Of a stretch of DNA of 64,000 bases, positions 18,121 to 61,262 are shown piece after piece. The DNA lies in NCBI GenBank assembly GCA_023101885.1, contig JALPQD010000075.1, positions 3,216,930 to 3,280,929 of the forward strand, written 5' to 3'. Each line of letters starts with the position of its first letter. Position 1 is the stretch's first letter. Source of the stretch: Typhlomys cinereus (Eukaryota; Chordata; Mammalia; Rodentia; Platacanthomyidae). The translations under genes were made by a program, and so were the position numbers. Under the pieces are notes generated by a model that saw only the letters and a program-made list of their open reading frames with translations, was not told where the DNA came from and ran no database searches.

Positions 18121-18145
18121 TACCAGAATGACCATCTGACTGCAG

Positions 18146-38640: not shown

Positions 38641-39004
38641 GTACCTTAGTGACCCCTGGATCTGTTGACTCCAGAGCATGTGACACATCAGGAATTGGAG
38701 TCCAGGAGCACATAGTCCTCTCTCTCATCAACCAAATAGTTTGTCTCTTGCATTAGTTGATATTCATAATAATCACACTGCAATCATGTTCCTTTGGATT
38801 CACAGTTCCAAATACAATGGAAGCTGCAGGTGAAGTGCACTGTGAAGAACAAGAGAAAATGAAGCTGAAAATGGTGGCGAAGAAGGACCGAGACCCTTGA
38901 GATTCAGCCTTCCTTTGTGACAAATTTTTAAGAACAGAAACATCCACAAACAGAAGGAGCAAAGAAATGCATATTTTATTTAAAAATAATTATGGTTCAG
39001 GAAA

Positions 39005-39365
39005 AGGCTGTGTTGCGGTTACTCTAAACAGTTCATAGTGCAGTTTGGGAGGAAGTTCACATCACCACCAAGGGACTCAGGAAACTGGTCAGTCTATATC
39101 CACGGACAGCTGAGAATGTAACAGACTTCCCTTGCCAGATAGAATGTCTGACCTAATATGACTAAGCATGACATTTGACTTTAACCAGTTTCCTTCTTTT
39201 TATCCACACGCCTAAGCAATGATCCTACCCACCAGGAGTTGGGATTCAACAACAACCAGACAATGTTCTTCAGGCTTGCTCAAGATTTAACCCAATTGCA
39301 AATTCTTTACAAATGTGTCCAGAACACTAGCCATCAAGGGTCAAGTTAACATCAGTAACCAGTTA
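39005..39365 (-). mobile_element. MaLR-type LTR, antisense, inside the interferon repeat unit
   Basis: GTTCACATCACCACCAAGGG, CAATTGCAAATTCTTTACAA and CATCAAGGGTCAAGTTAACA follow the LTR order seen at 29.1 kb. A related LTR sits at the same place in the unit around B (about 50.5-51.0 kb), so it was present before the duplication. Confidence 0.6.
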
Positions 39366-40055
39366 ACAGAGGCTGTGACTCATGTTGGCATAGTTTGGGT
39401 GTGTGGAAATATCACCCACAGAATATTAAAGTATAAGGATTTCCACAAATGGTTATTTCCTCACTAGAATATGTTTCATTTTTCTTACACTGATGTTCAT
39501 CAAAACAGAGACTTGGATAAAAGACAGTGTATCTGTTTACATAGAAACCATTGCTGGAAAGCTTTCAGTGCAGTGCCACTCACCTCCGCTGTGTGTGTCA
39601 GGAACTGCTGGACCTTTAAGAAAGGACTTCACTTATGTTCTAAGCCACACTAATTCTGGTTGGAATTGTGCTGCTGTCATGATTATTATAATGATCAAAT
39701 ATGATTCCAAAGTAACTAATTTCAACCTTCAGAAAGATGGACATACTGCTCTTTTAAAAAGAGATTAGGAGGGCAAAAATCTGAATTTTGTCAGCAGGAA
39801 GAGAACAGCAGAAAAAAAACAAAAACTAATACATGAAAAGAATTGATCAACATAAGGAAAAGCTAAAAGGAAACTGATATCACAGCTGGAACTGCAGGCT
39901 TTCAATTCTGTACCACAGCTACTGAAGCTAATACCACTACATCTGGTGTATTGAATCCTGGTTCTGTGGGACACAAACCAGGAAGTTGAGACTGACTCAC
40001 TGCAGAGCTGAGCTCCCCTGATGCCTATGGGCTGTTGTCCAATTGCTGAATTTCA

Positions 40056-40520
40056 ATGGTCCCTCTGGCAGGAGAGATGGTCTGCCCTCCATGTCTGCTG
40101 AAGTGACTCAGTCTTATCTTGGAGCCTGAATTTGCCACAGGAAAACCTTGCTGCTTTTTACACAGCTGAGAAGAATCCCCTCTCATAATTACCTGCCTGT
40201 CAGAACTGATTTCAAATGTCCCTGGCTGAGAGGGAGCATCCTGCCAGTGGACCAGCAGGCACCTTATTCTACTGAGAGGAGCTCCAGCAGGTCTTCAGCT
40301 CCTCACCACAAAGGCAGACCGTGCTGCTGTGGAGCAGAAGGTTCTCTCAAGACTGCTCTCCAGTCTTGCTGTGTGCCCAGAAAAAGTTGAATCAAACAGC
40401 AAAGGAAGATCTTTTCTCTTCCACTTTGTCCATTCCTATGTGAAAATATTTCTCCCTTGTTCCTAGTGGTTGTAAGGGAAGAATCTACGGTGTCCTTTTC
40501 CTCATTACTAGTGCCACAAG
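40056..40520 (+). pseudogene. Type I interferon-like pseudogene, copy A
   Basis: An ATG at 40,056 lines up with the B start (ATGGTCCCT). The copy then loses about 12 bases of the signal-peptide region and meets a TGA within about 17 codons. Downstream, CAGAACTGATTTCAAATGTC followed by CCTGGCTGAGAGGGAG is almost identical to B; notably A has TGG where B has the disabling TGA. The last third has lost the stretch between the YFRR and WEVVR parts, keeping only degenerate TACTAGTGCCACAAG. The protein family (secreted helical cytokine acting through IFNAR) follows from alignment with B. This copy cannot make it. Confidence 0.75.
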
Positions 40521-41503
40521 AATAATTGTGAGGGACAGAAGAAGCTCTAGGGAGGAATCTCCTCGAGCAAAAACAGCAGTGATTTCCAAACTCAAAGCAG
40601 AATCATCAGAACTGTTTCCACAACAGTTGGAAACATGTGAATCCAAAACAAACCCCAGAGGTGATTTCAATCTATTCTTATACTCACACACTAAGATGAT
40701 GACCAGTTTTGCTCATATGAAAAATGAAACAAAAAATAACCTTGTTCTGGAGGATAGTGGCAGTTATTTTACTTAATGAAACATGTAATAAAAATAATTT
40801 TACAGACAAATTATTTCATTATATTTGGCTCTCATTATCAACATGCAACAAATAAATGATTTTCTTAGGTTTGATACGAATTCAGTAAGTTGGGAGCAGC
40901 TGAAGAGTTTCTTAAATTTGAAAGTAACTTACAATAATTTCTCAGTTTTTTCTCATCGAGTAAGGCATTGGTCCCAAGGGTGGCAAAATTAGTACTTGGC
41001 ATTTAGAAAAAGTTATAGACCTCAACTTTATCTGGCAAACCAAAGGCACATGTAGATTTTCAAATTGTCATTCTGTGTATCCTGTAAGTAACAGTAAGCT
41101 TGAATTCTTCAAAGTGGATGAAAGATCAGGCAAGAAACCTGTAACACATAGATGGCTGTGGTTGTGAAGCTCCCCACGTTGTGCAGACCTCAGTCACATC
41201 AGCACAGGAGAACACTACACATGAGTGGGCCTCCATTCACTGCCTTTACTTGTTTTTGTGTTTTATTATCATGAATGCTCTAAGTGTTGGAGAACTCTAA
41301 TAAATTTTGCACATCTGGCATTTGCTAATGTTATTCCACAATCCTTTATGTGACAATTATTAAAGTGAGAAGAATATTGAATATCTCAACAAAAATATTG
41401 ACTATCACAATGATTACAGACCTCACAGCATGGTTACTTTTTTAGTGATGCAAGAAAGAAGAGTTGTTAATTGCTGAAAACAAATGTTAAGGAAATAATT
41501 ATT

Positions 41504-42670
41504 TTTTTTCACTTTTATAATTGAGATTTATTGGTTGAGGATCAGTCCACAGACATTTTAATTCGTACACAACTCTTAATACATGTAGTGAAAAATCTAA
41601 AAAGCCACACATCGTGTTTCACAAAACACTTATTCCAAGGATGTCCGGATTCCACCTCGGAGACCATTTTCCATCGAGCGCTGATGGTCCCGACTCCGCC
41701 CATTCATCCTCCTCATCACATGTATTACTCAGGGGTTGGTTTGTTCACAGCACGTCAGCAACATGACTAGGAAAACCGCACCACGACCAGAGAGATGTCA
41801 CACAGGGCAGTTCTGACTGGCAGCCGGCAAGGAGTGGTTTCTTTAGGAAACAGCTCTACTAGAAAACACGGGACTAGACAGATGAAAATACCCAGGACAC
41901 AACTGCACAACTGAGAAGCCCACTGCCGCCCAGAACGCTTTGTATTGCAGGATAGAAAACTAACCCACAACGGAATGTTGCACTGACACCAAGACAGTCG
42001 CAGCTGCCTCGATTCAGTGCCCATTATTTTCTGGTTGTACCAAAAAATAAACAACCAGGCAATGATTTCACCTCTTAAAAAAAACCATTTACACTTAAAA
42101 AATGGGATGAGGTGGGATTCCCTCCTTTTTAAAAATGTTTCTAGAGCTACTAAAAAACTCGCATTTACAAAATAGTCGATAAAAATATTCCTCTGGATTG
42201 TACAAGAAGGGAGACAGGGACCACTGCGGACACAGCGTGGGATTAGTCAGATTTGGCTTCTTTCTTGTCCTCATCATCGGAGGCCGTGCTCTCCTCGGTT
42301 TTGGTCTCTCGTTTTCTGCACACAGATCCTCTTTAGTGTCTGGGTCGGTCACTGCAGCCTGCTTTCCCTTCGCTCCTCGCTTCCCTTTTGGCTTGTACTT
42401 TTTTGTCTGAAGATTTATCCTTTCCCGCGGCCTTTTTCAGCTTCGATTCCACTTTGGCGGGAGCGGGTTTGGCCGACAACCGCGCCGATCTGCGCTTGGG
42501 CTCCTCCTTGGCGCCGTCCGCGGAGCGACCTTCCTCTTGGGCATCATGGCTGCGCGTGCGATGCTGCGGGCCGTCACGAAGATGCACTCGCCCCGCTGGC
42601 TCCCGCGCCCGAACTGCTGCGACCCGCGGGCGGGGACGGTGGGAGAACCGGATGAACCGGATTGGGGCCC
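41504..42670 (-). pseudogene. HMGN1: HMGN1 processed pseudogene
   Basis: An intronless, antisense copy of the nucleosome-binding protein HMGN1. Its coding homology is 42,544 down to 42,243: ATGCCCAAGAGGAAGGT, then KEEPKRRSARLSAKPAPAKV, DKSSDKKVQAK, TKEDL and a final KSD-stop. A one-base loss after the first six codons and a one-base gain in the KGKRGAKGK region shift the frame. The poly(A) tail (T run at 41,502-41,509) and AATAAA (complement at 41,525-41,530) are at the left. AAGGAAATAATTATT (41,489-41,503) and AAGGGAATAATTATT (42,671-42,685) are the target-site duplications, with one mismatch. This is L1-mediated retroposition into the interferon block. Confidence 0.93.
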
Positions 42671-42999
42671 AAGGGAATAATTATTATGACACTTTTATTA
42701 CTTCAATAGTTTTCATGTATTTCAGTAAGAAACAACCTTCATGAATTTCATAGATTATGAAATTACAAGTGAATTTGATAGACTGCAGTTTCTATGAGTT
42801 TATAAGACAAAAATCATTCAGTGACTCAGACTGTGAAGCAATAGCTCTAATTTGGAATTTTTAGAGAAAAATTTTCAATTTAAATTTTAGCTTATTAACT
42901 CAGTACAAAATATTCATTGAGGAAAACAATTTCGTGTTAATTTTTACCGAGATACTTGTACCATACATAAATATACATTGTATATATGCTTTACAATAC

Positions 43000-43165
43000 T
43001 GTGGGGGAGGGGGGGAGAGTAATGGTTCTGGGGTAAAGCCTTTGTTTGCAAGCTAAAGGACGTGAGTTTTCATCCTAGATTCCCCCTTAAAAGCCTTGGT
43101 CTGTACTGGGAGACGGAAAAATCTGAGATCTGTCCAAAGTCACCTTTGGGCCTCCACAGGCAGAA
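43000..43165 (+). mobile_element. B2-superfamily SINE, diverged
   Basis: GGTTCTGGGGTAAAGCCTTT, GCAAGCTAAAGGACGTGAGT and CTTTGGGCCTCCACAGGCAG match the SINE body order. Confidence 0.6.
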
Positions 43166-43169
43166 GTAA

Positions 43170-44420
43170 AAGAAATACTATGGAGATGGAAACAAAGGAA
43201 CCTTTTATATAAGAGAAGAGGAAATATAAACTAGTTGAGCGACATAACTCTAAATCATCGTTGAATATATAAAGAAACTAAAAGAAACAATCGAAGGAAA
43301 AGAATGAAATGTGTATGTTTAGGTTCCAGTTTGAAAAGCATGAAAAACAAATGTCTTCCTAGAATAGGAGATGTAGGGTCAGGAGCACAACCCCCTGAAT
43401 GGCCAACTGGAAATGGAAGCTCCGCAGAGGCCCCGCCCTGTGCTTCCTGCTGCTCTCTTGGTTTCATTTTGGCTTTAGGATTTCACTGCAAACATAACAA
43501 GAAGTATAGTGAACAGAGACAAAAGACAGAGAAAGCTGCAAAACAGCAAATGATCTGCGCAGCACGCACGTCATGAAACTGTTAGCAGGAGCAGTAACAG
43601 ACCACAGTGGACGTCTAAAGATATGTGCACATTAGTCTACATAGTTATAAAACTTCCTCAGAAGAATTTCACAGGAAAGAACTTACCCAAAAGTAACCTA
43701 AAAATGAACGAACCATCGTTACTTATAAAGTATAAGAAAATCCAGTGAAATTCCGGAGTAAAGGAGATTGAACCAGTACCACAGAAATGTGGAGAACAAC
43801 TCGTGAAGTCTGTCTTGCAGTGAGGAGAAGCTGTCAGACCCACACATTCTCTGCGTGGAAGAATGAATTCCACTTGAGGGTGTCCATAAGCCTGTCCCTT
43901 TCCAGACTGGATATAAAGCTTTATACAATTTGCGTTTCACAGTCAAGATAAAAATTAAAATTTCCACGACGTCCTGCGGATCCACACGCCCAAATCATTT
44001 CTGCAGCAGCGTCTTGAAGTTGTTCTCTGGAGAAAAGGAGCCGCTGAAGAATCATGAAGCAGCCAGTGGGCGCCTCCCTCCAAGTCCTGCAGGACACCCC
44101 CAGCTCCAGCAGGTCCTCTGCTGAGCTGCACCCGCCAGTGCCTCTGCTCCTTCCCTGGCTCCGTGCTGAGGTGCCAGCCTCAGTGACTGAAATGCTTTTC
44201 AAGGCTCCTCTGCGCTGGCACCTCTTGCAATGAGGAAGAAAAGCATTCTGGGACGTTGACAGAACAGTAGCATTAGTCGTCGCATTAGTTTCAGAAACCC
44301 AGGAAGCAAAGGCTCAGCAGCCTGTGGAGGCGAAAAAGCTGCAGAAACCCAAAGCACCACAGTCTGATTTTTTTGCATGACTGTTACCTCAGGAATGATC
44401 AGTTCATAGGGTTTCAGGGA
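43170..44420. other. Spacer before interferon-like copy D
   Basis: No gene recognised. An antisense reading frame of 93 codons (43,921-44,202) has no homology I can name and no splice context, so I leave it out. Confidence 0.4.
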
Positions 44421-44481
44421 ACAGCTGTGCTCGCGCCCCCTGCACGCCGAAGACAGAATCGCTGCGGTTCTGAACTGTTCA

Positions 44482-44945
44482 ATGAATCTGCTGCTCAGCT
44501 GTCTGCATTATTGCCTCAGGAGTCCTTGGAGCTTCTTGCAGGTTCTTGTAGCTTCTGGGCTACTGGAAAACTTTGCAGCTACTCACATAGCTGGGAAGGA
44601 TCCTCAGCTTTGAAAGTCTGGGGGACAGACCCACAGCGTAGAAAAAGAATGTCATCGTGTGAGGAACACATAAGCCTCCTGTTTCTACCCACAGATGCTC
44701 CAACAAATCTTCCACGTGTTTAAGACACAGATGGACAGATTTCCTGCATGGGAGACGTCAGTCCAGGAATTTCTATAGAGACTGGATAAGTGTGCAGAAG
44801 ATGTCGAATTCACTCTTATCAATTGAAGTATGGATTTCTCATGAATGGTAATCTCTCTGGAGAAAAAAAAATGCATACAAGCCTGGAAGGTGGTCAGAGA
44901 AGAAATGAAAGACTCTTTTCCCTCACTACAAGTGCCACATGTTGA
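44482..44945 (+). pseudogene. Type I interferon-like pseudogene, copy D
   Basis: An ATG at 44,482 opens a leader-like MNLLLSCLHYCL. A CTCGCGCCCCCTGC motif upstream is shared with copy C. Recognisable pieces then lie in different frames: TLQLLT followed by a stop and LGRIL (helix A); MLQQIFHVFK with FPAWETSVQEFL (helix B/C region, 44,695-44,750); and AWKVVREEMKDSFPSLQVP (helix E, about 44,886-44,940). Several stops and frameshifts separate them. The 3' flank, with ACATGTGTGAACCCAAACCC and AAGAGGTGAT, matches that of copy A. Clearly dead. Confidence 0.75.
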
Positions 44946-45295
44946 GTGGCAAATACAGAATATCACTACACTAAGGGACCTCTGATAGCAATGTCTGTGT
45001 TGCTTCCAAAATCAAAGACAGAAATAGAAAGTCAGTTTCATCACCAGCTGAAACATGTGTGAACCCAAACCCAAGAGGTGATGCTCAAAGTATCTTGGAT
45101 ATTGTCCCAATAGACCTTAGCAAAATAGTGATTAGGGTGTGTTTGTTCTTTAGAATACTTTAGGGTACATTGAGTTCATATCAAGTGGGTATGTTGTGCT
45201 TGCTAAGTCAGCAATCTTTGTATTTGGCTCTTTGCCTTACTCTATTGAGACACTGAATGGGAACTTTAAGTGTTAGCTTAGCTTAGCTTAGTTGA

Positions 45296-45645
45296 TTGAC
45301 TTTGAGTGCTCTCTCACAGAAACAGTTAAGAGTAACCTTTGTATACTGTGAGCTGACCCAGCTAATCTTGACTCTCTTCAGTACCAAGGACTCATCTCTT
45401 CCTGGGCACTTGACCCTCCCAGAGAGATTTGACACTGGACTCTTCCAAGTGCTAAATGACTCAAAAGACTCTCTGATATAACAGGTGGGTCACAAGAGGC
45501 GCTCCCAGGGAGGAGGTCTGCTTAGAGTTTGAGAGGAATCACTTCCAAAGGATCACTGTCTGCTGGGAGAAGAAGAAATAAAGCCCTTTGTCTGAAGTTA
45601 GCCAGAGCAGAAATCATAAGAGGTAACTAATCCACAGTGAGCATC
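45296..45645 (+). pseudogene. Type I interferon-like pseudogene, copy E (5'-truncated, IFN-alpha-like)
   Basis: Starts within the middle of the protein: CELTQLILTLFSTKDSS, then LPERFDTGLFQVLNDSKDS, which aligns with the LFSTKDSSAAW...LNDLEA region of IFN-alpha. After a stop, a decayed helix D/E part remains: NHFQRITVCWEKKK, and AGCAGAAATCATAAGA, like the end of an AEIMR segment. The first half (signal and helix A) is missing. The 3' flank (CTGAGACAGGATCTCATTGC, then a TATC-like repeat) matches the flank of copy F. Confidence 0.8.
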
Positions 45646-46036
45646 TAAGTAGACAGAGGAAGGAAGGAGTGTGAAAGTCATGATGTAGCATGGAAAAATG
45701 GCTCTTAGGGACTGAGACAGGATCTCATTGCACAAGTGCTTTCCAGATGAAACATGCTGTTTTTACTCCAATTTTTTCAAGACTATTTTCAAGACTATTA
45801 AGATGTAAGTTTTCTAATCATTTCAATGCAAATCAATTTTATCATCTATCTATGTATCTATCTTTCTGTTTATCTGTTTATCCTCTGATCTGCATTGTCA
45901 TGTTCCTGACCTATGTAGCAGTTATCTATTTCCCTCTTCTGCTATTATCTAATAAATGTTTATAATTTTGAAATGACACTTGTTCACAAAGACTGTTGTA
46001 TGACTACATTGTGTGGCATACTTAGAAAGACAATAT

Positions 46037-48021
46037 GACGTACTTTTTAGTATGCACAAAAATCAATTCCAGATGTATCAAGGACCTTAATATTAGGCCA
46101 AATACTACCAAAATCCTATTTGAAAGAGTATGTAACTCCCTTTAGCAGAATAGTCTAGGCCAACAGTTACCAAATAGAAACCCAATAGCACAAAAAATCG
46201 ACCCACGGAATGGGAGAAAATCTTCACTAAGTACAAATCTGTTAGAGCTCTATTATCCAGAGTACACAAAGAACTTAAAAAAATTAGACACCAAGGAGAT
46301 AAATAGCCCAATTAAATTATGGGCCTCGAAACTCTAAAGGAAACTTTTCCAGAGACAAAATTGAAAGGTCTACCAAATATCTTAAAAAATGCTCCACATC
46401 CCTAGCCATCAGGGAAATGCAAATCCCAAGTACCCTGAGATATCATTTTACCCCGGTCAGGATGGTGAAAATCCACAATATAAACACCACCATGTGCTGG
46501 AGAGGATATGGAGAGAAGGGGACACTCATACATTGCTGGTGGCAATGCAGGCTTATATACTCATTCTGCAGATCAGTATAGTGTTTCTAAAGATGTTACG
46601 CATTGAAATGCCATATGACCCTGCTATACACTTCTGGGAATAATCCTTCAAAATGCAGAAATTCACTGTAGTGACACAGATGCAACCATGTTCATTGCAG
46701 CACTATTTGCAGTATCCATCCATATGCCAATAGTTGATGAATGGGTAATGAAAATATGGTATATTCATACAATGGAATATTACGTAGCCATGAAAAGACA
46801 ATTTAATTAAATTTTCCCAGAAATGGATGGAATTTGAAGAAACTATATTAAGTATCCCATTCAGAGAAAGTTAGATGCCTTATGTACTCCATAATAAGTG
46901 GATCCTAGTTACAAACACACTTAAAGACATACTCTAAGGTAAATCTCTGTAATATCCACTATAATCACAAAGGATTATAAATAGGAAAGAATGGGAATGA
47001 AGACCTCAAAAGAAAGGAGGCAAAAGAACACAATTAAATAGAAAAATTAGGCCACAGTCACGTACTGAATGTTAGTAGCAAGACATCGATGCAGCTCACT
47101 CTCACATTCCTTCCTGTTCATTTGGGACTGAACAGGTTTGATCTGCCCAGTCAGGGAGGTTATAGGGACTGGCAGTTTGATGTAACAACTCTACGAAACC
47201 AGAGACTGAACCTTATCACTTCTGTGTCCTACTCCTATTGTTCAATCTACCTTTGAGTCCCCTTTTTCTTAAGGTCTTTGTTTAAACAGTCTTTTATCTT
47301 TGGTTAGGAGATGACATTCAATACCAATCAGGCAGCAGCCGAAGGCAGTGCAGGAACAGCAAAACTGAAAACAACAACAAACCATAATTCAGAACATCCA
47401 AAACTCTTCAATGTTCTCTTGGAACGAGACCAGCCAAATCTGTCTCTGTCTTAAAACTCAGGGAACATTGAAGAAGAGGGGGCAGCAAGATTGTAAGAGC
47501 CTAAAAACCCCGGGAGAACCAACGATATGCACGATACTCACACAAAACAAGACTGCAACAGCCAGGATACAGCCACAATGTCAGTGGACCTTGCCTGACC
47601 TGCACAATGGTTGACATGTCAACAACCCTCCAAAGTGTAGCAGAGACCACAAGGAAGAAGGCTTCAGGCAGTAGGATCCTTAGAAGCAAGGGGTTAAACA
47701 TTCATAATGGAGTTCCCATATGAGTGAGCTGCTCCAAAATGGGGCCCCAAGCTGTGCCAAGGAGTCCTTAACCCTCACTAGTGCAGATGACTCAGAGGGA
47801 AATTCAGCACCCACATAAACAAATGCTCTGGAGGATGGGAGGGAGAAAGCAGGAAAAACTCAGAGAGGAAGAGGGAAGGAAAAGAGGGAGAAGAGTGGAA
47901 AGGGAGAGAGTGCAATGAGGGAAGCAGAAGGGAAGAGAAGGAGGACTGAGAAGAAGGGGGTGAATATTGACCTTGTATTACTAGGCAAAAAGTAATAAAC
48001 ATGTTTTAAAAAATTTTTAAA
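46037..48021 (+). mobile_element. 5'-truncated L1 (ORF2 end and 3' UTR) with target-site duplication
   Basis: Starts inside the C-terminal half of ORF2; its first bases align with the [20 protein letters not shown] part of the L1 at 62.8 kb. It continues through the Cys/His region and the RMxSLIGG-like end, all with many frameshifts. The 3' UTR has a polypurine block (47,830-47,960) and ends in TTTTAAAAAATTTTTAA. AAAGACAATAT is duplicated at 46,026-46,036 and 48,022-48,032. Inserted into the 3' flank of interferon-like copy E. Confidence 0.93.
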
Positions 48022-48032
48022 AAAGACAATAT

Positions 48033-49190
48033 TTTGTAACTTGTGAGTGGAAATTTTCTTTGTGTATTTAGATTCACTACATAACATGCCTTGCATGGGT
48101 TTATCCTTTAAATTTAACCTAAATCCTGACTATAGAAGTTGATTAGTTAGGAAATCATTTGCTTATCTCTGGTAGTTTGACTTGATGAGGAAAACTGCCT
48201 TTCATACGGCCCTCAAATATTGCAGGTGACTGCAAAGAGAAGCACAATTTCATCTTTTCAGTATTTTTGTTGTCTCTTGAAAAAAAAAGTAGGATAAAAT
48301 ATATGAAATTGCTAAAGTTATGTTTGAAGATAAACACTGAAGGAAAATACATGCAGGAGTTAAACTACAGAATCTCAGATCATGAAACTGCAAATGTTCA
48401 AACCCCAAGGATAGAAGAGCTGGCAGGAAACTGACAGGCAGAAGCTTCCATGTGACTTGTGAGGGTTATGTGATGGAGGAGTCTTTTGAGGAAAGAGTGT
48501 TTCAGGAGGGAGAGACCTCAGGAGATTCTGAGAACCTGTGAGAGACAAGAGCTCCATAGGACCACAGTCTGCCATCAGCCAACCAAGAAGAGGTGGAGAT
48601 GCAAGTAAGCTGAGGAAAGGCAATTAGGCAAGGGCCCAGATGGGGGCAGAATGCCTCCAGTACATCCACAGAAAGAGAAGAGGCTCAGAACCACTGGGAG
48701 GTGTGTGGATAGAATGAGACAGCTGAAGTCCCCTGGGCGTGGTTCAAGAAGTGAAGGTAGTAAAAGAATTTCAGTGACATGATACAACAGAAGTAAGTTC
48801 TAAGATGCACAACTGAAGAGGGGAGAAGTGCAGGGAGATGGGATGAGAATATCTGTCATTCTCTGCAAAGATTGTTCACTTTGAAACTGCATTTTGGCCC
48901 ATGGCATGGAATGCATGCATTTCATATATCAAACACATATTGACCTTTTTCATAGGTCTCTTATTATATATCAACATATGTGACTATAAGGTAAGAAAAT
49001 TTATGCTTTTCTGACACTAGAATTATGTTGCATTTCACAAAGCTATTCTCAGGTTTCACAGATGCAATGGAAAAGAAGATAAATCATGATGTTAGTGGCA
49101 TTTGGATCTCTAAACTCCAGAATAAGTGATCCTGCACTAAGGGAAGGCGAAGAGAATACTGACTACTCTCCATCCAACTAAATATCATGT
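48033..49190. other. Interferon-block spacer
   Basis: The left part resembles the DNA at 55.4-55.5 and 55.88-56.0 kb, the copy F flank; that flank is split there by an LTR. The rest shows nothing recognisable. Confidence 0.5.
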
Positions 49191-49194
49191 TACT

Positions 49195-50460
49195 ATATTA
49201 GTTGATGTTCATGATCTTTACACGTGCATTTAGATCCTTTGGATTCACACATCACAATTAGATGGAAGCTGCAGAACACAGTGATGGACATGCTTAGAAT
49301 TAGTGACTCGTGGGGCCCAAATCTGAATGGGACATCTGAGTCACCCCTACTCCAAAGTCGAGGACACAGAGAAGAGGGAGGGGAGAAATCAAGAGCTGGA
49401 GGACAGGGGGATGTCCCTGAAATGCAACCATTCAGACATGACATGACCATGGGAAATACCAATACACAGCTGTGGGTTCACCATAATGTTGGGGATTTCA
49501 CACTGCATGGAAGGAAAAGAGAGAAAGTGAAGCACTGAAAATGAGGGAAAACTATTGTAGAGCCCCTTCAGCCAAGGTCTCACTTTTTGATTTTATGACA
49601 GATTTCTCATGAATCAGAGACATCCTCCTATGGAAGGAACAATAAAAATTATGAAATTAAAACGATCTGCCAAGCAGAGAGATCACAAAATTGTCAAAAA
49701 GGAAACACTTTGACAGTTGGATTATTTTTTAAAAAACATTACTATATTGTATTACATAAATCCATTAAGGATGAACTGGAATTCTTCTAAAAGTAAGAAT
49801 GAAATTTTCCATGTCCCCAGAAAAGGGATTAATGCAGGTGTCTCTGGCTACTCCTTCTTAGACAGAAATGTTGTGTGGAAAATACAAAATATGATAGGGT
49901 AACCTTAACATAAATATTAAGTAATGAGTAAGTAGAAGGATATAAATCCTGGTTACATTTTTAAAAATGCAATGAAACAGAAAACACAAGGTCCTCTGAT
50001 ACAGTTATACAACCAGCTGTGAGCACGTGGCCTTCTTCTCCCTTCACTTACCAGTAATTGGATTCCACATTCTTTGCCCGATGTACCAGCTCCATCCATT
50101 CTATATCTTCTTTTAGTTTTCTTATTCTCTCTGTCTCTCTGTCTTTCTCTCTCTCTGTCTGTCTCTCTCTAAACACAAAGGCCACTGAGTCTTGTGTTCT
50201 TTTTCTCACCTTCTGGTTTTAATGTTAACCACATCAAGTGTTAAGTGAGAATGAATGAATCCTCAGCACTGTGAAAATGCTTTGAAACTATGTGCAGGTC
50301 TCTTCTCATGGAATGAAGGGAAAGTATGTTCTTCAGATACACAACTGTTCAGGGTTCTGGTCATTGTGCCCATAGGAAAGAGACCAGCACACATTACTCT
50401 TGATGATATGATGATATGACTGAAGACAGTGAAAAGTAATGGTCATGACCGTAAAATCAG
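49195..50460. other. Upstream part of the copy B repeat unit
   Basis: Matches 38.75-39.0 kb (copy A unit) in TTTGGATTCACA, TGGAAGCTGCAG and other blocks, but is longer. It includes a TCTC/TGTC low-complexity tract at 50,125-50,170. No gene recognised. Confidence 0.5.
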
Positions 50461-50461
50461 T

Positions 50462-51005
50462 TCACAGAAGAAAAAGAGAGGAGGCTAATTTTTTTAAAAG
50501 TCATTCAGTTTGGTCATATAAAGTCACATGCATGCAAACAGGATATTCCCACGCTCATTGATTTTCACATCCTGTTGTAGTAATCTGTGCCTGATCCCAT
50601 CAGTGGGATGGGATTTCAAGAAACTGCTACAAATCTATTGCCAAAGGACATTATATGTTTTCTTAGACAAATGGCTATTTCAGGAATTAACTCAATTGCC
50701 AATTTCTTTTTTTACATTTATTATTATTATTATTATTTTATTATTATTTCTGTTCATACATACCGGTTCCCTCCCTCTCTCCTCCTCCCCCCAACCCCCC
50801 TGCTCTCCCTACCTCTCCATCCACCAATGCCTACCCCCCAATCCCTGGAGAATCCTTTAATGTGCATGGCAGACTCTCCTCTGGGCCCTCCTCTCCGATG
50901 ACGTACAAGGACCCAGTGTCATTTCCCTGAACCCTTTCCTGTGTTCCCCTTAAGCATAGGAACACTACTGTGGCTGTCAAGAGGTCAAGATACATGTTGA
51001 TTACT
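50462..51005 (-). mobile_element. MaLR-type LTR, antisense, split by an L1 3' end
   Basis: TCAATTGCCAATTTCTT is interrupted near 50,708. The LTR resumes near 50,970 with TGTCAAGAGGTCAAGATACA. It corresponds to the LTR at 39.0-39.4 kb in the copy A unit. Confidence 0.5.
50708..50970 (-). mobile_element. L1 3'-UTR-like fragment, antisense
   Basis: Reverse complement of the 11.64-11.87 kb repeat: GTTCCCCTTAAGCATAGGAA, a reversed polypurine run, and an (ATT)n/T-rich end at 50,708-50,750 that represents the A-rich tail. Confidence 0.5.
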
Positions 51006-51453
51006 GAATCTAGTGAATGTGGGAAGTGACTCATTGCTGGAGCAGATGGGGTGTGTTAAAATATCGCCCAGGGAATATGACAACATGTGGGGATTTCCAC
51101 AAATGGTTATTTCATCATAGTACAGTGTTCAGTATTTCATTCAATCTGTGGTCCTCATAGCATAGACCTGGGCTGTGTTCATATATAAAACCTTGCTAGA
51201 AATCGTCCCAGTGCAGTTGCCTGCCATTCACCACCACTGCTGGAGTCCTCACCTTTAAGAAAGGCCTTCATCGATGTCCACATCTAACCGAGTTAACTCA
51301 GAAGCTTATTCTACATTCACTTATGGTGCTGCTGTGTACAAGGATCTCATAAATTTCTGATTGTCATTGTCCAGGTTTCAGGATTATTATTATGATTAAA
51401 CCTGATCCAAAACTAGCATCAAAGTTCAGAAAGACTGGCACGATTCTCTTTTA

Positions 51454-51540
51454 AGTGAAAACAAGAATGAGAATCACTAAACTATTTAACTGTGAGAGAA
51501 AAGAAGAATAAACTGAAAGCAAATCTGTAAAAAGAAACAT
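51454..51540 (+). promoter_or_regulatory. GAAA-rich virus-response-like element upstream of copy B
   Basis: Several GAAA-type words in one orientation (GTGAAAAC, GAGAAAAG, CTGAAAGC, AAGAAACA) lie 175-260 bases before the ATG. Repeated GAAANN words bind IRF3/IRF7 in type I interferon promoters. Copies A and C have similar but decayed clusters. Function is inferred. Confidence 0.45.
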
Positions 51541-51635
51541 ATTATCAACAAAGGAAACTACAATCACAGCCTGAACTCTGGGCTTCCAATACTGTGCCCC
51601 AGCTACATAAACTCAAAGCTCTATTATTGCTGGAG

Positions 51636-51643
51636 TATTTACA
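51636..51643 (+). promoter_or_regulatory. TATA-like box of copy B
   Basis: TATTTACA lies 77 bases before the ATG. Copy C has TATTTAAG at the equivalent place, and interferon genes commonly use a TATTTAA-type box. Confidence 0.5.
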
Positions 51644-51712
51644 CCCACGTTCTTGTGACTTATTCACTCCAGAGCTGCCTGCAGGCTGCCTTCAAAGCTG
51701 CAGAGTTTCACA

Positions 51713-52240
51713 ATGGTCCCTTTATATCTATTCCTGGCTGGAGTGATGCTCTGTTCCACCCCTAACTGGTCACATGACTCGGGATTCTCATGGAGCCCAA
51801 GTTTGCACCATAGGCAAACCTTGCAGCTACTTACACAGTTGAGAAGGATTCCCTCCCATAATTGCCTGCGAGACAGAACTGATTTCAAATGTCCCTGACT
51901 GAGAGGGAGTGTCCCGCACATGGACAAACAGGCCACATGTTTCTATCAAGAGGTGTTCCTACAGGTCTTCAGCCTCCTCACAACAAAGGTGAACTATGCT
52001 GCTCTGAAAGAGAAGGCGCTTGGCAATCTTCTCTCTAGTCTGGCTGAGGGTCTGGAAAATCTCAATCAGACAGGACAGGAAAATCTCTTTTGTCCTCCTC
52101 TTGGTATTCTTATACGTAAATATTTCAGACGAATGACCAACTACCTGCAGAAAAGGGAATACAGTTCTTGTTTCTGGGAGGTGGTCAGAGGAGAATTGGT
52201 AAGGGCCTTTTCTTCACTACCAGTTCCTCAAGGTTTATGA
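51713..52240 (+). pseudogene. Nearly intact type I interferon-like gene (copy B), one in-frame TGA
   Basis: A single-exon reading frame of 175 codons plus stop, the usual size for a type I interferon precursor. It opens with a secretory-type leader (MVPLYLFLAGVMLCSTP). A helix A-like segment QTLQLLTQLRRI and loop NCLRDRTDFKCP follow, as in the IFN-alpha LLAQMRRI...SCLKDRHDF region. Codon 62 (51,896-51,898) is TGA, where copy A has TGG. The same frame then continues with FLQVFSLL, a possible glycosylation site NQT (118-120), RKYFRRMTNYLQKREYSSCF and WEVVRGELVRAF, the classic C-terminal helix. Cys51 and Cys153 match the conserved Cys29-Cys138 disulfide pair; the usual N-terminal Cys1 is absent. 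The subfamily is unsure; an IFN-zeta (limitin)-like or lineage-specific gene is possible. The stop makes it a pseudogene unless it is a sequence error, polymorphism or read-through site. Confidence 0.85.
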
Positions 52241-52446
52241 AAAACAGAAGAAATTACATTGAGGATTCTGCTGGAGCCCTGGTAGCCACGAATCCCTAGT
52301 TCAAAGCAGTTACATCAAATATGAATTTCTTCTTGCATGAGAATGGATGAATAGAAAATGAAGTGATGTTTTTGAAGTGTCTTTGTGCATATCACACAGG
52401 GGAAATTATTAAAATAACATTGTGTTGAATCACCTCAGTATTTCTT

Positions 52447-52452
52447 AATAAA
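52447..52452 (+). terminator. Poly(A) signal of copy B
   Basis: AATAAA about 207 bases after the stop, in TATTTCTTAATAAACTTCAA. The same context exists after copy C at 58,961. Confidence 0.6.
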
Positions 52453-52899
52453 CTTCAATCTAAAAGTTTTCTTGGTTGGTTTATGTGCTGAAAGAAGATT
52501 AGCACTGCCAAAGTTTTAGCTATATAGTTCTGGTAGAAAGGTGGATATGTGTGAAGTCTGTGGACATTGTTTTGCAGTTGTGTGTTCTGTGTACATGTAG
52601 AGACCAAAGTGGGATGCCATGTTCTTACTCTACTGCACTGTTCCTTGTTTCTTTGTGATAGAGGAGATTCTCAAGAGGAGTGAATGCTCTGAATCAGCTG
52701 TGAAGCTCATTAGGAAAATGCTGCTGAAATCCACTGTCTTATTCCAAGCCTAATATTGGTGACACTGGCACATAGGGCTCCATGGTGCTTATACATGGAT
52801 ACTGATGATTCATATTCAGATCCTTATAGTTTTAAGAGCAAGCACTCTTACTGACTGAGCTATTTATCCTTCATATTGTAAGGAATACTTTTGCATGTT

Positions 52900-53195
52900 T
52901 ATGTGTTGGTGTGTTTCATGTGATTAGTGGCAGATGTGAGTTGGGGCATGTGCACAAGAGGGTGTTTTAGTTTATGTGCCTGTAGAGGAACAAAGGTGGT
53001 GTCAGATACAGAACCTTTCTCCCTATGTCCTTGTTGCATGGCTGTGCAGCTTCCCCCAATGTGATGCACTGTCCATGGGTGGAGTTATTGGATCTGGTCA
53101 TGTACATTGACTGTGTTTACATGGGATCTCTGGAGCCAAAGTCTGGGTATTTGCTTTCAGTGAAAAGATTCTAATCACTGAGCCATTCCCCAGCA
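52900..53195 (-). mobile_element. B2-superfamily SINE, antisense, diverged
   Basis: GTGCCTGTAGAGGAACAAAG, ACATGGGATCTCTGGAGCCA and CTAATCACTGAGCCATTCCC follow the reversed body-to-head order. Confidence 0.6.
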
Positions 53196-53199
53196 CACT

Positions 53200-54500
53200 G
53201 TAAAGACTTTTGGAGACATTACTTATGAAAGCCATTGGAAAGCTAACTTGCTTAAGTATTAACTTGACAACCTTGAGCTCTCAGCCACTAAGTCTGAAGA
53301 CTGGCTCATAATCAATTTTAGAGGAGATTGAGAGCAATTACTGATGTAATGTATGAATGCTTAATAAAATCATTTAGTTATTATGGTGTAAAGACTCATA
53401 TTCCTGTTTCTTGTGTCCTTACAGTAAAGACTAACGAAAATGGTTAAAAAATATAGATCTGAACACTTGTATAAATGCTGCGGGAAATAAAGGCAACAGA
53501 GGGAAAATAATGAACTGGAAATTGTTTAGGATCTGAGTTAAAAAACATGACAACCACTAAATATCTTCAAAGACCCTGTGGGTTCGACTGCCTTATGATT
53601 TTTCCAGCCATCATTAAAAGAAGCACAAGTAAACATCAATAAAAGAGACAGAGGAAACTAAGAAACAGCAAAAAGATACTCCACCCCCAAATTAGCATAC
53701 TAAAAACAGGAACACAAAACTCTGCATGCCTAAGATTATATCAGAAAAAAAAATCATGTGCAAGCCCATTGACTAGGCCAATGTCTGTTCTCATATGATC
53801 ATTGTAGAAAAGGACCTACAATTGCTTGAACTCATGTGACAAAATGTCATGTTGCTTGAATAACCTTCCTTTTATGTAATTTGCAAAAGTGCTGTTGATA
53901 TTTCAGGAGGATTATTAGGAATTTTTATTTTCACATTTTCTTTCAGGGCTCATGGTAGACTAAAACTGCATTCCTTCCAGTAAGTTGTGAGAAATGCTAC
54001 AGAACACATACATTTCCTTTGTTCTTGTCAGACAATACACCCAAAATCCCAATTTCCTAATTTATTCTTCCAGTAGTGAGCTGTTGATCCAATGAACAAC
54101 TCATTGATCTACCTAGAATATTGTATTCACACTGGTGCACATTCTCCATCAGGAATTTAGGTCTGAAAGCTGGTATTTCCTCCTGGACCTGTAATGTGTC
54201 TTGAAAGAATCATGTTGACCATTAAAGCATTCGTTTCCTTTGAGTACATCCCTGGTTGTTGTGTGTGCTCCTATCCCCCTCACACAGGTTCTGTTCCCCA
54301 TTCCTCTTTACTAGATTAAGTAGGAGTATTATATGCAGTTAAGACAAATTTTCTTCTCTTCATTTTATCCAGAAGTAAGCAACTTTGAGAAGCCAATATT
54401 CCCTTGTCCACCCCTTAACAAATGTACACAAACAATTCTCTACGGAAACCAGGGGTGTAGCATCAGGACCACACACTCCCTCAGAGCAAGAAGCAGCTGT
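53200..54500. other. Spacer between copies B and F
   Basis: AT-rich. No gene, RNA or confident repeat was seen. The last 150 bases may be the decayed promoter region of copy F. Confidence 0.4.
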
Positions 54501-54512
54501 AGCCTCCCACGG

Positions 54513-55022
54513 TGCCTGGTCCTTTCTTCTCTGACGACTCTGGTGGTGCTACTACAGGGCATCCTGCTCTCTGAGCTGCGCCTGCCTCACATGCACCGTC
54601 TGCAGAAAGAGAAACCTTGATGCGTCTGGTTCGAATGATGCGCAGGTCCCTTATGTACTTCTTGAAATTCATAAATAACCACATTTACCTCAAGAAATGT
54701 GTTCACCAGCAGGTCCCCAAGGCCTTGACCATGTGAGCTGACCCAGCAGAATTTGATTCTCTTCAGCAGGAAGGTCTCATCATTTGTCTTGGTTCACATC
54801 TCTTCTGTCCAGGTTCTGTACTGGCCTCTTCCAGATGCTAAGTGACCCCAAGCCTGACGGATGCTGCCCATTTTGTGCAGGAGATTCCCCTGTTCAGGAG
54901 GACTCCATAGTGTCTGTGAGGAAGCACTTCCACAGGAGCACTGTCTACTTGAAAGAGAAGAAGTTCTCCCCTGTGGCTGGGAGGTGATCCAAACAGAAAT
55001 ATAGAGACTTCCCTTTTCTCAG
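54513..55022 (+). pseudogene. Type I interferon-like pseudogene, copy F (IFN-alpha/omega-like)
   Basis: A hydrophobic leader-like LVLSSLTTLVVLLQGILLSE runs into LRLPHMHRLQKEK, aligning with the IFN-alpha CDLPQTHSLGNRR start; Cys1 is replaced. After a frameshift comes LMRLVRMMRRSLMYFLK, matching helix A and the SCLKD loop but with the cysteine lost. Stops follow. Later pieces are FCTGLFQMLSDPKPDGC, then VRKHFHRSTVYLKEKKFSP, then in another frame AWEVIQTEI. There is no usable ATG at the expected start. It differs from copies A-D and pairs with copy E, sharing its 3' flank. Confidence 0.82.
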
Positions 55023-55529
55023 CTTACAACCTCGGTAGATAGTGGATAGAGAAGTATTAAAGAAATGAACCAACATTGAAATGACTCTCAGTGACTAAGA
55101 CTTTGTCTCATTGCAGGATGTTTTCAATATTGAACATGGTATTTTTACTCTGATTTTCTGGAATCCAATCAATTCATTTATATTTTCAAACATAGTAAGC
55201 ATAATCTTACTCTTAAAATTTCCATTCAGATCTACCCTGTATCCATCTATTTATCTACCTGTCAATCTATCAACTCTTTATGTGTCTGTCATCTATTGAT
55301 CTTTTCTGTTTTAATTTATAAGATGATTAAAAGTTTGAGGTTATCTTAGTTGATAAATCTGATAAGCAATTTCATTTCCTGCCCCATAGTAGAAAAAAGT
55401 TTGTGTTATGTGAATTGTAATTTTGTTTAGTATTTGGATTCTATATGCAAAACTTCTTGTATGTGTTTAGTCTTTAAATGAAACCTGAATCTTGATTATG
55501 GAACTTCAATGCCATGGAATTGTACTGGT

Positions 55530-55880
55530 AACTCTGTTCTGCTGCTGTGAGAGAAACCCCAAAGGCAAGCAGGTTAAGGGAGAAAGGAAGATTTATTTAG
55601 CTCACTGCTCCTGAGGGGAGATACAGTTTATAGCAGAAAAGGCATGGCTTGTGCAAAAGGAAGAGGAGGTATAGGTCGCGTCCATCGAGGAGGCTGAGAG
55701 CTGCTAGCTGCCAACTACAAAAGCAGACATCACCTGAAATTAAGGTGAGACACATCCAAATCAAAGCCCATCCTCTGAACTGCATCCCTCTTAGAATATT
55801 CCATCTCCTAAAGGTGCTACAACTTTTGCAAACACCAGTGATTCTGGGGGACACATTTCAAACCATGACAGGAATGATTA
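55530..55880 (-). mobile_element. MaLR-type LTR, antisense
   Basis: TTCTGCTGCTGTGAGAGAAA, GGAAGATTTATTTAGCTCAC and GGGGGACACATTTCAAACCA, then TGACAGGAATG. It interrupts the copy F 3' flank, which resumes to its right with similarity to 48.2 kb. Confidence 0.65.
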
Positions 55881-56087
55881 AATTAATTTGACTTTCTCTG
55901 CAAGTTTGATATTGCATTTTACCTAAACCTCAGACTATGCAGGTGAATGGCAAAAAAATCACAATTTCTTCTCTTCATCCTGAAAATATTGGGAAGGGAA
56001 AATAATCGTTAAGTACATACTTTAGTCTTCTACCTATGGTTATGTGGGTATTGTGTCCAGGATTCAGCTTGCTTACATTGTTTTCTT

Positions 56088-56305
56088 CTCCTTCCTTCCT
56101 TCCTTCCTTCCTTCCTTCCTTCCTTCCTTCCTTCCTTCCTTCCTTCCTCTCCTCCCTCCCTCCCTCCCTCCCTCCCTCCCTCCCTCCCTCCCTCCCTTCC
56201 TTCCTTCCTTCCTTCCTTCCTTACTTCCTTCCTCCCTTCCTCCCTTCCTTCCTCCCTTCCTTCCTTCCTTCCCTCCCTCCTTCCTTGTCTCTCTCTTTCT
56301 CTCTC
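56088..56305. repeat. (TTCC)n/(TCCC)n polypyrimidine repeat
   Basis: A pure TTCC array, then TCCC, then mixed units, ending in CTCTCTTT. Phe/Leu/Pro/Ser frames are artefacts. Confidence 0.97.
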
Positions 56306-56883
56306 TGCATATCATGGTCAGTGTTGGTGAATGTCTAGACTGTTGAATCTCGTATTCTTTCTCCGCCTACTATTTGGACTGTATGTAAATTGAAGGTTAA
56401 CTGAGAACACGTGAATCATTAGCAATGTGGACATGAACTTCAATACAGTATGTGTAGGTTCTTTTTAGAAAAGGTATTACAAATGTGAATTGATGAGATA
56501 GAAATGTTGTGTTCTGATATCTGTGCCCCATCATTTCCCACAATGAGTCAAGGACTCTCAACTCTAAGATATCTCTCATATGGAGGACGTCATCCTGCTG
56601 CTCAACTTCCAATAAAATGTTTGGCTCCTCATGATATTAGAGCACACAGACACAGCAGCCGACAGTTATACCATGAGCATTAGACAGGGAAGACCTATCA
56701 AGCTTCCCTAATGCATTAAGAGCTTTGGATTCACACACTAAGAAATATGCATGAACACAACAGTGACACCCACAAGAACAGCTTGGAAGTATTTAGAGAC
56801 ACTCTCATGGGTTGTTTCACTTACTTGCTTAATGAACTGAATACGGCCTGTGAAATTAAAACAATACTTTAGAAATCCTTTAG

Positions 56884-57118
56884 GAAGAGATTGCCCACGG
56901 CAGCTTTAACTTCCAGGGAACTTTCTCTAATGTGGCTGAGTTCCTATTCGTGGTCTCTAAAGACATCCTTTCATCGTCCTCCTTTAATAATAAAGAGATT
57001 GAGGCAGCACAAAATACCAGGGAGTGCACCAAGAAGTCGGTGGACAGCATCAGAAGAGGACTCCTTCCCATGTACAGCCTCTTGCACACCCCAATGAGGG
57101 AGGATTGAATGTCCCAAT
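56884..57118 (+). other. Exon-like open segment, unidentified
   Basis: 235 bases preceded by CCTTTAG and followed by GTAAGT, so bounded by potential splice signals. From its first base it reads openly for 74 codons, beginning EEIAHGSFNFQGTFSNVAEF, with SSSSFNNKEIEAAQNTRECT later and LLPMYSLLHTPMRED at the end. TGA follows at 57,106. The composition looks protein-like, but I recognise no family. It could be a relic exon carried with the duplicated block, a processed pseudogene fragment or chance. Confidence 0.3.
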
Positions 57119-57735
57119 GTAAGTTAAAAGTTAAGATAGTTAGAGCATTCTTTTCTAAGTACACTGCATATTGTTACCTCAGTTAAAAGATTAAAAGTGC
57201 TTGGATGAACAAGAACTAATAGGAATCAAGAAGGCCTGACTCTTTAAAGTCAGTTTTCAATCTCCCGATTGTTGGAAAGTCCATTGATCTGGAGACACCT
57301 TCTCTTCAGTTTGGGTGTACTGAAACCTCACCCAGCGAATATCAAAGCATGTGGGGATTTCCACAAATGGTTATTTTGTCATCAAATATGGTTCATTTTT
57401 CATTCTGGTGCTCATCATAACAGACTTGGAGAAGAGCCAGTATACTCTGTTCATATTTAAGTCATTGCTAGAAAACTGTTCAGTGAAGTTGCTACTCAAC
57501 ACCAGTGTGTCTAAGGACTGTTAGAGTCCTTGTCTTTCAGGAGGGCCTGCATTCATGTGCTAATCACACTACACTAACAGGAAAGCTTTATAGCACATTT
57601 TATTTATGATACTGTTTGAACTGAGATCCTTTTAGATTTCTGCTTGGAATTTCTCAGCTTGCATAATTATTATAAGGTTCGAAAATGATTCAAAACTAAT
57701 TTCAAAGTTCAGAAAGATTGATACATTTCTCTCTT

Positions 57736-58045
57736 TATTTAATTTTTCTCCCACATTTTATTTCCTAATCATACAAGCATAATAGGTACTCCAGTCCTCC
57801 CTCCACCTCTCCTCCCCAGTCATCCCTCACTGCACTCTCTTCCCTTTCCCCCTTCCTTTCACCTAAGTCACTGTCTCTTCCTATCCTGGTTTCTCCCCCT
57901 TCCTCCCCACTGTCCCCTGGACCATCCTTTTGTGTTAACTTTAAATCTCCCTCTGATTCCTCCACCCTCTGGTGAGTTCAGCAGTTAGTGGAACAGCCAG
58001 GGGCCCCTTCTTGGCTCCAAGTTAATATGGGAACTCTATTATTGT
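57736..58045 (-). mobile_element. L1 3'-UTR fragment, antisense, inserted upstream of copy C
   Basis: Read on the - strand it has GAGTTCCCATATTAACTTGG (compare GGAGTTCCCATATGAGTGAG in the L1 near 47.7 kb), a long polypurine run and an A/T-rich end. Sequence on both sides continues the copy B-type upstream region, so it split the interferon promoter area of copy C. Confidence 0.65.
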
Positions 58046-58218
58046 AAAATGGGAGAAAAATGGGGATAGCTAAACCATTTAAATTGAACAGTGAAAAAAA
58101 AAGAACAAACTGAAAGCAAACACATGAAAAACAAAAAATGAAGACATGCTCACAGGAAACGATGCTACAGCCAGAAGTGTGGCCAGAGCTACTGAACAAA
58201 GCACTGGTACAGCAGGAG

Positions 58219-58226
58219 TATTTAAG
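58219..58226 (+). promoter_or_regulatory. TATA-like box of copy C
   Basis: TATTTAAG, placed like the TATTTACA of copy B. Confidence 0.45.
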
Positions 58227-58329
58227 TCCTGGGTCTCTGGGAAACAAGCCAGGAGGTGCTTGGACTGACTCACTGCAGAGCTGTGATCGCGCCCCCTGCT
58301 GGTTTCCTGCAGTATTGCTGAGTTTCCCA

Positions 58330-58850
58330 GTGGTCCCTCTGTATCTCCTCCTGGCAGAGGTGATGCTCTGCCCCTCCTCTGCCTGCCCACATGACTCAGG
58401 CTTACCTTGGAGCTGACCTTGCACCACAGGGAAACCTTGGCTCTATTTGCACATATGAGAAGATTCCGTCCGATAGTTGTCTGCTGAACATAATCGATTT
58501 CAAATGTCCCAGGCAAGCATTCTACAAGTTGACAAGCAGGCCAGCTGTTTCTACTAAGAGGTGAACCAAGAAGTTTTATACTTCTTCACAAAAAAGAACA
58601 ACCATGCACATAGGGAACAGAAGGTGTTTGTCAATCTACCGTCTATTCTGCAGGGCCTGGAAATGTTGAAAGAACACCGAAGGAAAAATCTCTTCTGTCC
58701 TCATTTGTCAATTCCTATAGAAAGTATTTCTGTAGAAAGGCCAAGTATCTGGAGAAAGGGGCTATAGCCCATGCTCAGGGGAGGTTGCCAGTGGGGAACT
58801 GGTAGTGTGTATTACCAGATCAGAAGAAGAATTGTGACGGACAGAAGAAG
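58330..58850 (+). pseudogene. Type I interferon-like pseudogene, copy C
   Basis: The start codon is changed to GTG (GTGGTCCCTCTGTATCTCCT against ATGGTCCCTTTATATCTATT in B). The leader-region similarity, CATGACTCAGG, ATTTCAAATGTCCC, and AATCTCTTCTGTCCTCATTT at the helix C/D step are all close to B, but stops and frameshifts intervene. The WEVVR region is decayed to GGGAGGTTGCCAGTGGGGAA. The upstream region is split by an L1 fragment. Not functional. Confidence 0.75.
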
Positions 58851-58960
58851 CTCCAGGGCGTATCTCCCTGAGTATGACAGCTTTGATTCCCATGTGTGAA
58901 ACCAACATTGACAGGTTAGAAGTGAGCAGTATGTTTGGATGAACCTCATCAGTATTTCCT

Positions 58961-58966
58961 AATAAA
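58961..58966 (+). terminator. Poly(A) signal of copy C
   Basis: AATAAA in TATTTCCTAATAAATTTCAG, matching the copy B site. Confidence 0.55.
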
Positions 58967-58969
58967 TTT

Positions 58970-60048
58970 CAGAGTAAAAATCTGTCTAGATAACTGTGAA
59001 TTCTTGAGGAGAGTTTAGCTCTGCCCAATGTCCTGTCCAAGGTGTCGGTGTGCATGTGTCATCTGTGGATGCTCATGTGCAGGTAACTGTGCCTGCAGCA
59101 TGTGGAGACCAGAAAAGAGCCATTTCTATTCTGCCTTGTGCTATATTGTTTTGAGATGGATGTCTCTAGTTGAGGTGTATGCTTGCTATTTAGGCCAAGG
59201 TGTGTTTTCTCCTCTTACATTCTTGCTTCTTCATCTCTGGGTTATGTAATCAAAAAGGAAGAACAAAAGCAAGTATTACATCATTTATTTCTATGCTTTC
59301 AATACAGAAATGATCTTTTCTCATTTCAGCTTTCATAGAGAGCAAACATTGGGAAATTTGTGGACAAAGTGAAAACAGAAGTAAGACCAAATATCATGCG
59401 ATGAACCAAGAAAGTAAATGTGCCTGAGAAATGACAAGGTTTCAGCAAAGTGAAACTGTGACTGAGGAGAAGGCCAGGACTGCAAGGCACAAAGACAACA
59501 GGTGGTGTTTCTCTGAGATGCTCAAGGAAGGGTCACCCTGGGTCAGTGAGCAGCCCTGACCTTGCAAGCCTGCCAGCTGATGGGACCAGTGCTGGGGAGT
59601 AAAGGAAATGGTCAAACCAATTGAGATAATGGCTTTTCTGATATGATACATTAAGGTAAAGCAATAAGAGACATAGAAACCAGGTTCACCAGGAAAGAAG
59701 TGGGCAGAATTTGAAACTGGGAGAACAGGGAGGTTGACCTGAGAAATACTGAGATTATCTCAAACCCAAAGAATGCTGATTTTTCTTTTTGATCAGCATG
59801 TGGTGTATGTAAACTACCTTGAGTTAGCTAACATATTCTGAGGAAAAGAAGAAAAGCATCATAAAAATAACTTTGAAGGAATGGATTTTTTTCTCTCACA
59901 TGCAAAATATATAAATTTTATTGAGGCATTTCTGAGAGTGGTCATAAAGTCAGCTGATTAATTCTTTGTTGTGGTCACATGACTGGGCAATAAATTCAAT
60001 CTCCAGATTTTTATATATCTTCCTATTGTTATGAGGGAAAATAAAAGG
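58970..60048. other. Flank of copy C, nothing recognised
   Basis: The first 100 bases still resemble the B flank. The rest has no gene or clear repeat. Confidence 0.4.
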
Positions 60049-61034: not shown

Positions 61035-61262
61035 TTAATGTTTGTGTTTGTTTATAGAGGCCCAGGGATGACTTTGTGAAGCACCCTGGATTGCTCTACC
61101 TACTCTTTGCTTTGGCTCTGTAGTTACCCAGGGTCTGCCTTCCCGGACTGGACTGGCTGCTGCCATTTCTGTCTGGTATTTTGATGTGGGGTTTAGGATC
61201 CAAACTCAGGACCTTCTACTTGTGAGGCAGAAGCTTAACCCTGAACCATCTCTCTGGCCCTT
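61035..61262 (-). mobile_element. B2-superfamily SINE, antisense
   Basis: CCCAGGGTCTGCCTTCCCGG, GGATCCAAACTCAGGACCTT and CCTGAACCATCTCTCTGGCC are the reversed body, B-box and head. Confidence 0.85.

Follow-up and report, generated by a model that had tools for sequence, protein, structure and literature searches.

An array of type I interferon relics in duplicated units on the same sequence as FOXN3

The type I interferon genes of mammals follow a single-region rule, at least according to PMC2680415. How, then, could relics of such genes stand beside FOXN3, and what were they before they decayed? We considered these questions in a window of 64 kb, i.e., the whole stretch of DNA that was analysed, for which an earlier note had claimed six interferon-like copies on the + strand with FOXN3 as their neighbour. 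The neighbour is indeed FOXN3: residues 295–490 of the human protein align by tblastn with positions 3047–3628 (173/200 identical, 86.5%; E 2.6e-92), identity over the last coding exon being 87%, and the stop codon occupies 3629–3631. Approximately 36 kb, measured from this stop and not from the end of the 3' UTR, separate FOXN3 from the first relic, copy A. A self-similar block of about 21 kb (approximately 38276–59183) encloses six + strand type I interferon relics (40056–58804). There are no N letters in the window (count 0), and one uninterrupted sequence carries both FOXN3 and the relics. The sequence as given supports, without proving, this unusual address; if the assembly is right, the FOXN3 neighbourhood departs from the single-region rule as worded in PMC2680415. 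Among the literature matches listed, no title concerns interferon genes next to FOXN3, which does not imply absence from print. The landmark and the six copies are as follows.

3080–3631, + strand: last coding exon of FOXN3, with the C-terminus and the stop (tblastn; exon start taken from the alignment).
40056–40519, + strand: copy A, interferon pseudogene assigned to the divergent class (91/152 identical to D; 2 stops and 6 frameshifts relative to D).
44488–44937, + strand: copy B, the most decayed relic, apparently nearest to the divergent class (alignment; DNA match to A and D).
45350–45621, + strand: copy C, alpha-like relic, 5' truncated, with the segment LFSTKDSS (40/90 identical to IFNA2; 2 stops, 2 frameshifts).
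51713–52240, + strand: copy D, a frame of 175 codons plus stop with a signal-peptide-like start (one in-frame stop, at codon 62; 0 frameshifts).
54516–55055, + strand: copy E, near full-length alpha-like pseudogene (79/173 identical to IFNA2; 2 stops and 6 frameshifts relative to IFNA2).
58330–58804, + strand: copy F, interferon pseudogene assigned to the divergent class (83/155 identical to D; 1 stop and 5 frameshifts relative to D).

Mature human IFNA2 and human IFNW1, IFNB1, IFNE, and IFNK were aligned, with frameshifts tolerated, to both strands of the 64 kb. With IFNA2, the copies A to F scored 66 (end at 40367), 63 (44919), 118 (45621), 208 (52213), 195 (55055), and 95 (58804), and one further row, on the - strand, scored 42. 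The same query reached at most 52 on shuffled strands (mean 42.7, n = 50; maximum 47 with n = 4), and the reversed IFNA2 protein at most 44 on the real window. Beyond the six copies, no place in the 64 kb rose above the shuffles with IFNA2, and all six were found on the strand and at the coordinates previously claimed. IFNW1 also lists all six, copy B (46) falling below the best IFNW1 shuffle (51); IFNB1 and IFNE exceed their shuffles at D and E only, and IFNK does so at D, E, and F. IFNK also gives a score of 52, above its four shuffles (maximum 47), at a - strand place that ends at 42040; since this place is absent from the lists of the four remaining queries, the match was regarded as chance and rejected as an interferon copy.

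The Pfam family Interferon (PF00143) was matched by 4 of 10 pieces submitted to hmmscan (drawn from A, C, D, E, and F and from outside the copies), namely the two parts of D (1.6e-5 and 6.3e-20), a piece of E (1.2e-5), and a piece of C (0.0037). Only the second part of D passes the curated cut-off (72.4 bits vs. 26.8), the other three matches falling short of it. Of the six pieces that hmmscan left unmatched to PF00143, F contributed three, A and the 5' part of E one each, and the last came from outside the copies. Copy B, the weakest by protein, matches A (E 1.1e-16) and D (4.3e-11) at the DNA level in blastn. When D is read through its stop, residues 31–168 match PF00143 with an E-value of 1.6e-30 (106.8 bits against the cut-off of 26.8), which assigns D, as judged from its sequence, to the type I interferon family. 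The earlier note had named the lack of significant type I interferon similarity in a translated search as one of its refuters; similarity was found, both in the six scores above the shuffles and in the Pfam match of D. No working interferon frame was detected in the window by alignment with the five human queries, all six copies being disabled, and no RNA family matched anywhere in the window.

The copies are not a uniform series. At the DNA level, A, D, and F are mutually 64–66% identical, C and E are 65% identical, and B is 58–59% identical to A and D (blastn), while no blastn match between the A/D/F and C/E groups reaches E 1e-4. C and E, and also D, obtain their top score with IFNA2 among the five human queries. 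By these comparisons, C and E appear to be alpha-like, A, D, and F appear to represent a divergent class, and B seems nearest to the latter. The order of an alpha-like copy followed by a divergent one occurs twice, as C-D and E-F, and the two units have flanks in common: 48024–48140 with 55391–55506, 48152–48260 with 55881–55977, and 50186–50427 with 56344–56588. Likewise, 43228–43363 upstream of B is similar to 53437–53573 upstream of E. Some of the short flank pieces have modest scores, and their support comes chiefly from their order. The upstream flanks of A, D, and F are 65–70% identical over 571–649 columns (K2P divergence 0.39–0.47), and more common pieces are found some 2.4–2.6 kb upstream of D, whereas the 3' flanks of the three copies, aligned together, match poorly (47–56% identity over 118–164 columns). 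The flanks and the repeat at the edge of the block are listed below.

38276–38635, strand not assigned: dispersed repeat at the left edge of the block (blastn), with more copies at 55520–55876 and 45290–45340 (partly inverted).
38631–38857, + strand: flank of copy A, homologous to 49077–49299 upstream of D (155/218 identical; E 1.1e-19).
49077–51712, + strand: region upstream of D, of which 49077–49299 aligns with the flank of A, and 50985–51712 with the flanks of A and F.
58940–59183, + strand: flank after F, homologous to the flank after D at 52426–52688 (61% identity, E 4.4e-8); right end of the block.

Given the common upstream flanks and the alternation of classes, the units were multiplied as stretches of DNA and not as copies of mRNA; retrocopying as the route of unit multiplication was rejected on account of the common non-coding flanks. 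The claim of duplicated type I interferon relics is upheld, with units that repeat on the uninterrupted FOXN3 sequence, and the presence of two classes in repeating units with common flanks goes beyond what had been noticed before. The density of GAAA, an interferon-type promoter signal, lies within the background upstream of A, D, and F, and hence no promoter signal is claimed.

Several other elements were observed in the window. A retropseudogene of HMGN1 lies on the - strand between A and B (42246–42544; one frameshift, 62% identity to the human sequence in the longer piece). Just right of the block, an open frame of 664 codons (61755–63749, + strand) looks like the end of L1 ORF2, with a FADD motif, and may be a rather young insertion; a decayed relative, 73–75% identical, is located between C and D (46039–47119). 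Immediately before this frame, a G+C-rich segment (61428–61700) is flanked by two identical 28-base direct repeats. An inverted repeat, 59183–59398 and 60573–60779, with arms 79% identical, also adjoins the block on the right. A repeat upstream of A (38996–39315) recurs on the FOXN3 side at 29159–29484 with 66% identity (E 1.8e-29), and a degenerate GATG repeat of about 1.6 kb (18145–19728) is situated between FOXN3 and the block, with a GC skew of 0.78 over 18001–20000.

Among PDB entries the best match of copy D is interferon alpha-8 (3.4e-22), followed by other alphas, tau, omega, and beta. Its global identity to the human sequences is 33% for IFNA2, 34% for IFNW1, 27% for IFNB1, 29% for IFNE, and 31% for IFNK; as a yardstick, human IFNA2 and IFNW1 are 61% identical. 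In the global alignment, C51 and C153 of D correspond to the C29–C138 disulfide pair and the C1–C98 pair is absent, cysteines having been examined for D only. The CL-DR motif near residues 29–33 and WEVVR with the next arginine are retained in D in the same alignment, all of which belong to the contact with IFNAR2. The single stop at codon 62 leaves D with no open frame for a secreted cytokine. This stop (51896–51898) is UGA followed by CUG, close to but not the same as the readthrough motif UGA CUA. A search for homologues of D yielded no hit among 112 candidates, a result taken as uninformative because the search had no positive control and its database may hold few vertebrate proteins. A single-sequence structure model of D had a pLDDT of 41, too poor for use.

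Was D simply the last of the old relics? Changes unique to D, counted on columns common to A, D, and F, occupy 25 of 296 columns at codon positions 1–2 vs. 27 of 150 at position 3 (Fisher p 0.005; three tests, uncorrected, run after the pattern had shown). The corresponding counts are 35/296 vs. 20/150 for A (p 0.65) and 45/296 vs. 23/150 for F (p 1.0). Codon positions 1–2 are avoided by the changes of D but not by those of A and F, which means that selection still acted on D as the neighbouring copies decayed. The branches of A and F look neutral over their whole length; that of D does not. Under unconstrained drift of 0.2 per site, which assigns to the D branch about half of the upstream-flank divergence, at most one stop jointly with no frameshift would be retained in less than 0.1% of cases, with stops simulated from D minus its stop and frameshifts obtained by formula, assuming one indel per 8 or 14 substitutions; with drift of 0.05 per site, the proportion is 5–16%. 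With its single stop and a substitution pattern of purifying selection, D is not an old relic, a point that the earlier note had not made. The stop of D marks a late loss, unless it is an error or polymorphic.

The account that we favour, at a probability of about one half, is that a stretch of the interferon cluster came to lie 3' of FOXN3 and formed a tandem array, in which five copies decayed and D was disabled late. The source stretch would have carried an alpha-like gene and then a gene of the second, divergent class, and would have been transferred as DNA; it is now present there as the tandem array A; B; C-D; E-F. Copies A–C, E, and F have decayed, and D may have kept its function as a secreted interferon during most of the period after the units diverged, until one stop disabled it late. 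The sequence itself establishes the family, the two classes, the arrangement in units, the decay of five copies, and the constraint on D. We infer that a segmental duplication or a transposition brought the source stretch from the canonical cluster, and that D, when intact, was secreted and bound the interferon receptor. The stronger claim, that the lineage possessed two type I interferon loci, the canonical cluster and this one, whose member D, devoid of the first disulfide, was kept under long selection and either lost recently or is intact in other individuals or sister species, seems to us unlikely.

A different history seems less likely: a chromosome rearrangement may have brought the type I interferon cluster, complete or by one of its ends, next to the 3' side of FOXN3, so that the six relics are the edge of the cluster. 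With its alternating classes and tandem units, the array does resemble a cluster interior, and a D that functioned until late is what would be expected of a live-cluster member. On the other hand, no working interferon frame is present in the window, and 0 of 17 open frames of at least 175 codons resemble the intronless KLHL9, as judged by eye. The absence of working genes and of a KLHL9-like frame is a weak argument, since only 5 kb of the window lie right of the block.

We regard it as rather improbable that the contig is chimeric, i.e., that interferon cluster DNA and FOXN3 DNA from one and the same species were misjoined. The dispersed repeat, a typical site of misjoins, does coincide with the left edge of the block, and the neighbourhood contradicts the single-region rule as stated in PMC2680415. 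However, the join shows no gap, with no N in the window, and the edge repeat is short and 69% identical to its second copy, probably too diverged to mislead long reads. The copy of this repeat at 55520–55876 also matches 13723–14006 on the FOXN3 side (69%, 88%, and 60% identity in the blastn set). The edge itself is soft: leftward of 38276, only chance-level local scores (about 20) were obtained, but a score of this size is also seen between the two interferon classes. A repeat 84% identical between 11640–11844 and 50770–50979 lies on both sides of 36 kb (blastn), and a SINE-like repeat (61039–61260) has diverged copies at eight places left of 36 kb and one near 43 kb; such sharing of repeats is evidence against the joining of two different species. 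The mouse consensus sequences match five old copies of B2 and two of B1, all left of 36 kb; two of the B2 places are also hit by the ID consensus, and both B1 places by human Alu, one of them slightly better than by B1. These old SINEs weakly suggest that the DNA comes from a rodent.

That retrocopies of interferon mRNA landed near FOXN3 is very improbable. Type I interferon genes are intronless, so that the gene bodies alone cannot exclude retrocopying, and a retrocopy, that of HMGN1, is present inside the block; yet two alternating classes are observed, and the non-coding flanks in common, which extend up to about 2.6 kb upstream, would not be carried by retrocopies of intronless genes. Chance similarity or low-complexity noise, although short single motifs can occur randomly and 6 of 10 pieces lack an Interferon match, is ruled out by the reversed protein and the shuffles, with six scores all above those of 50 shuffled strands, and by the E-value of 1.6e-30 for D.

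The locus is thus a real array of type I interferon pseudogenes that multiplied as DNA and includes one only-just-broken, long-constrained member of the divergent class. If this is a true second site, a segment of the cluster can leave its locus and a gene there can stay under selection, and the dependence of interferon regulation on the cluster would become testable. Should it be the entire cluster that was joined to FOXN3, the block would mark a precise rearrangement breakpoint.

Among known systems, the mammalian cluster (human 9p21, mouse chromosome 4) resembles the array in having PF00143 genes of more than one subfamily side by side, with pseudogenes among them. In contrast, that cluster is described in PMC2680415 as lying between IFNB and IFNE, with KLHL9 inside and IFNK apart, whereas the array has FOXN3 as its neighbour and no working copy was seen in it. 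The likeness to IFN-alpha consists in the pairwise scores of C (118) and E (195), which are best with IFNA2 among the five queries; the difference is that both are broken and that C is devoid of its 5' part. The C1–C98/99 pair is given as a feature of the IFN-alpha/omega/delta/tau group in the same source (PMC2680415), and D is without it. IFN-zeta (limitin), a divergent rodent subfamily known from mouse, with remnants in rat (PMC2680415), would fit A, D, and F if the window is indeed of rodent origin. Finally, the bovine type I interferon locus is reported, again in PMC2680415, as two parts more than 700 kb apart. Although both parts are on chromosome 8, and most IFNX genes (2/3) keep all four cysteines, including 1 and 99, whereas D is without C1–C98, the bovine case illustrates that a type I interferon locus is able to split and to carry new subfamilies.
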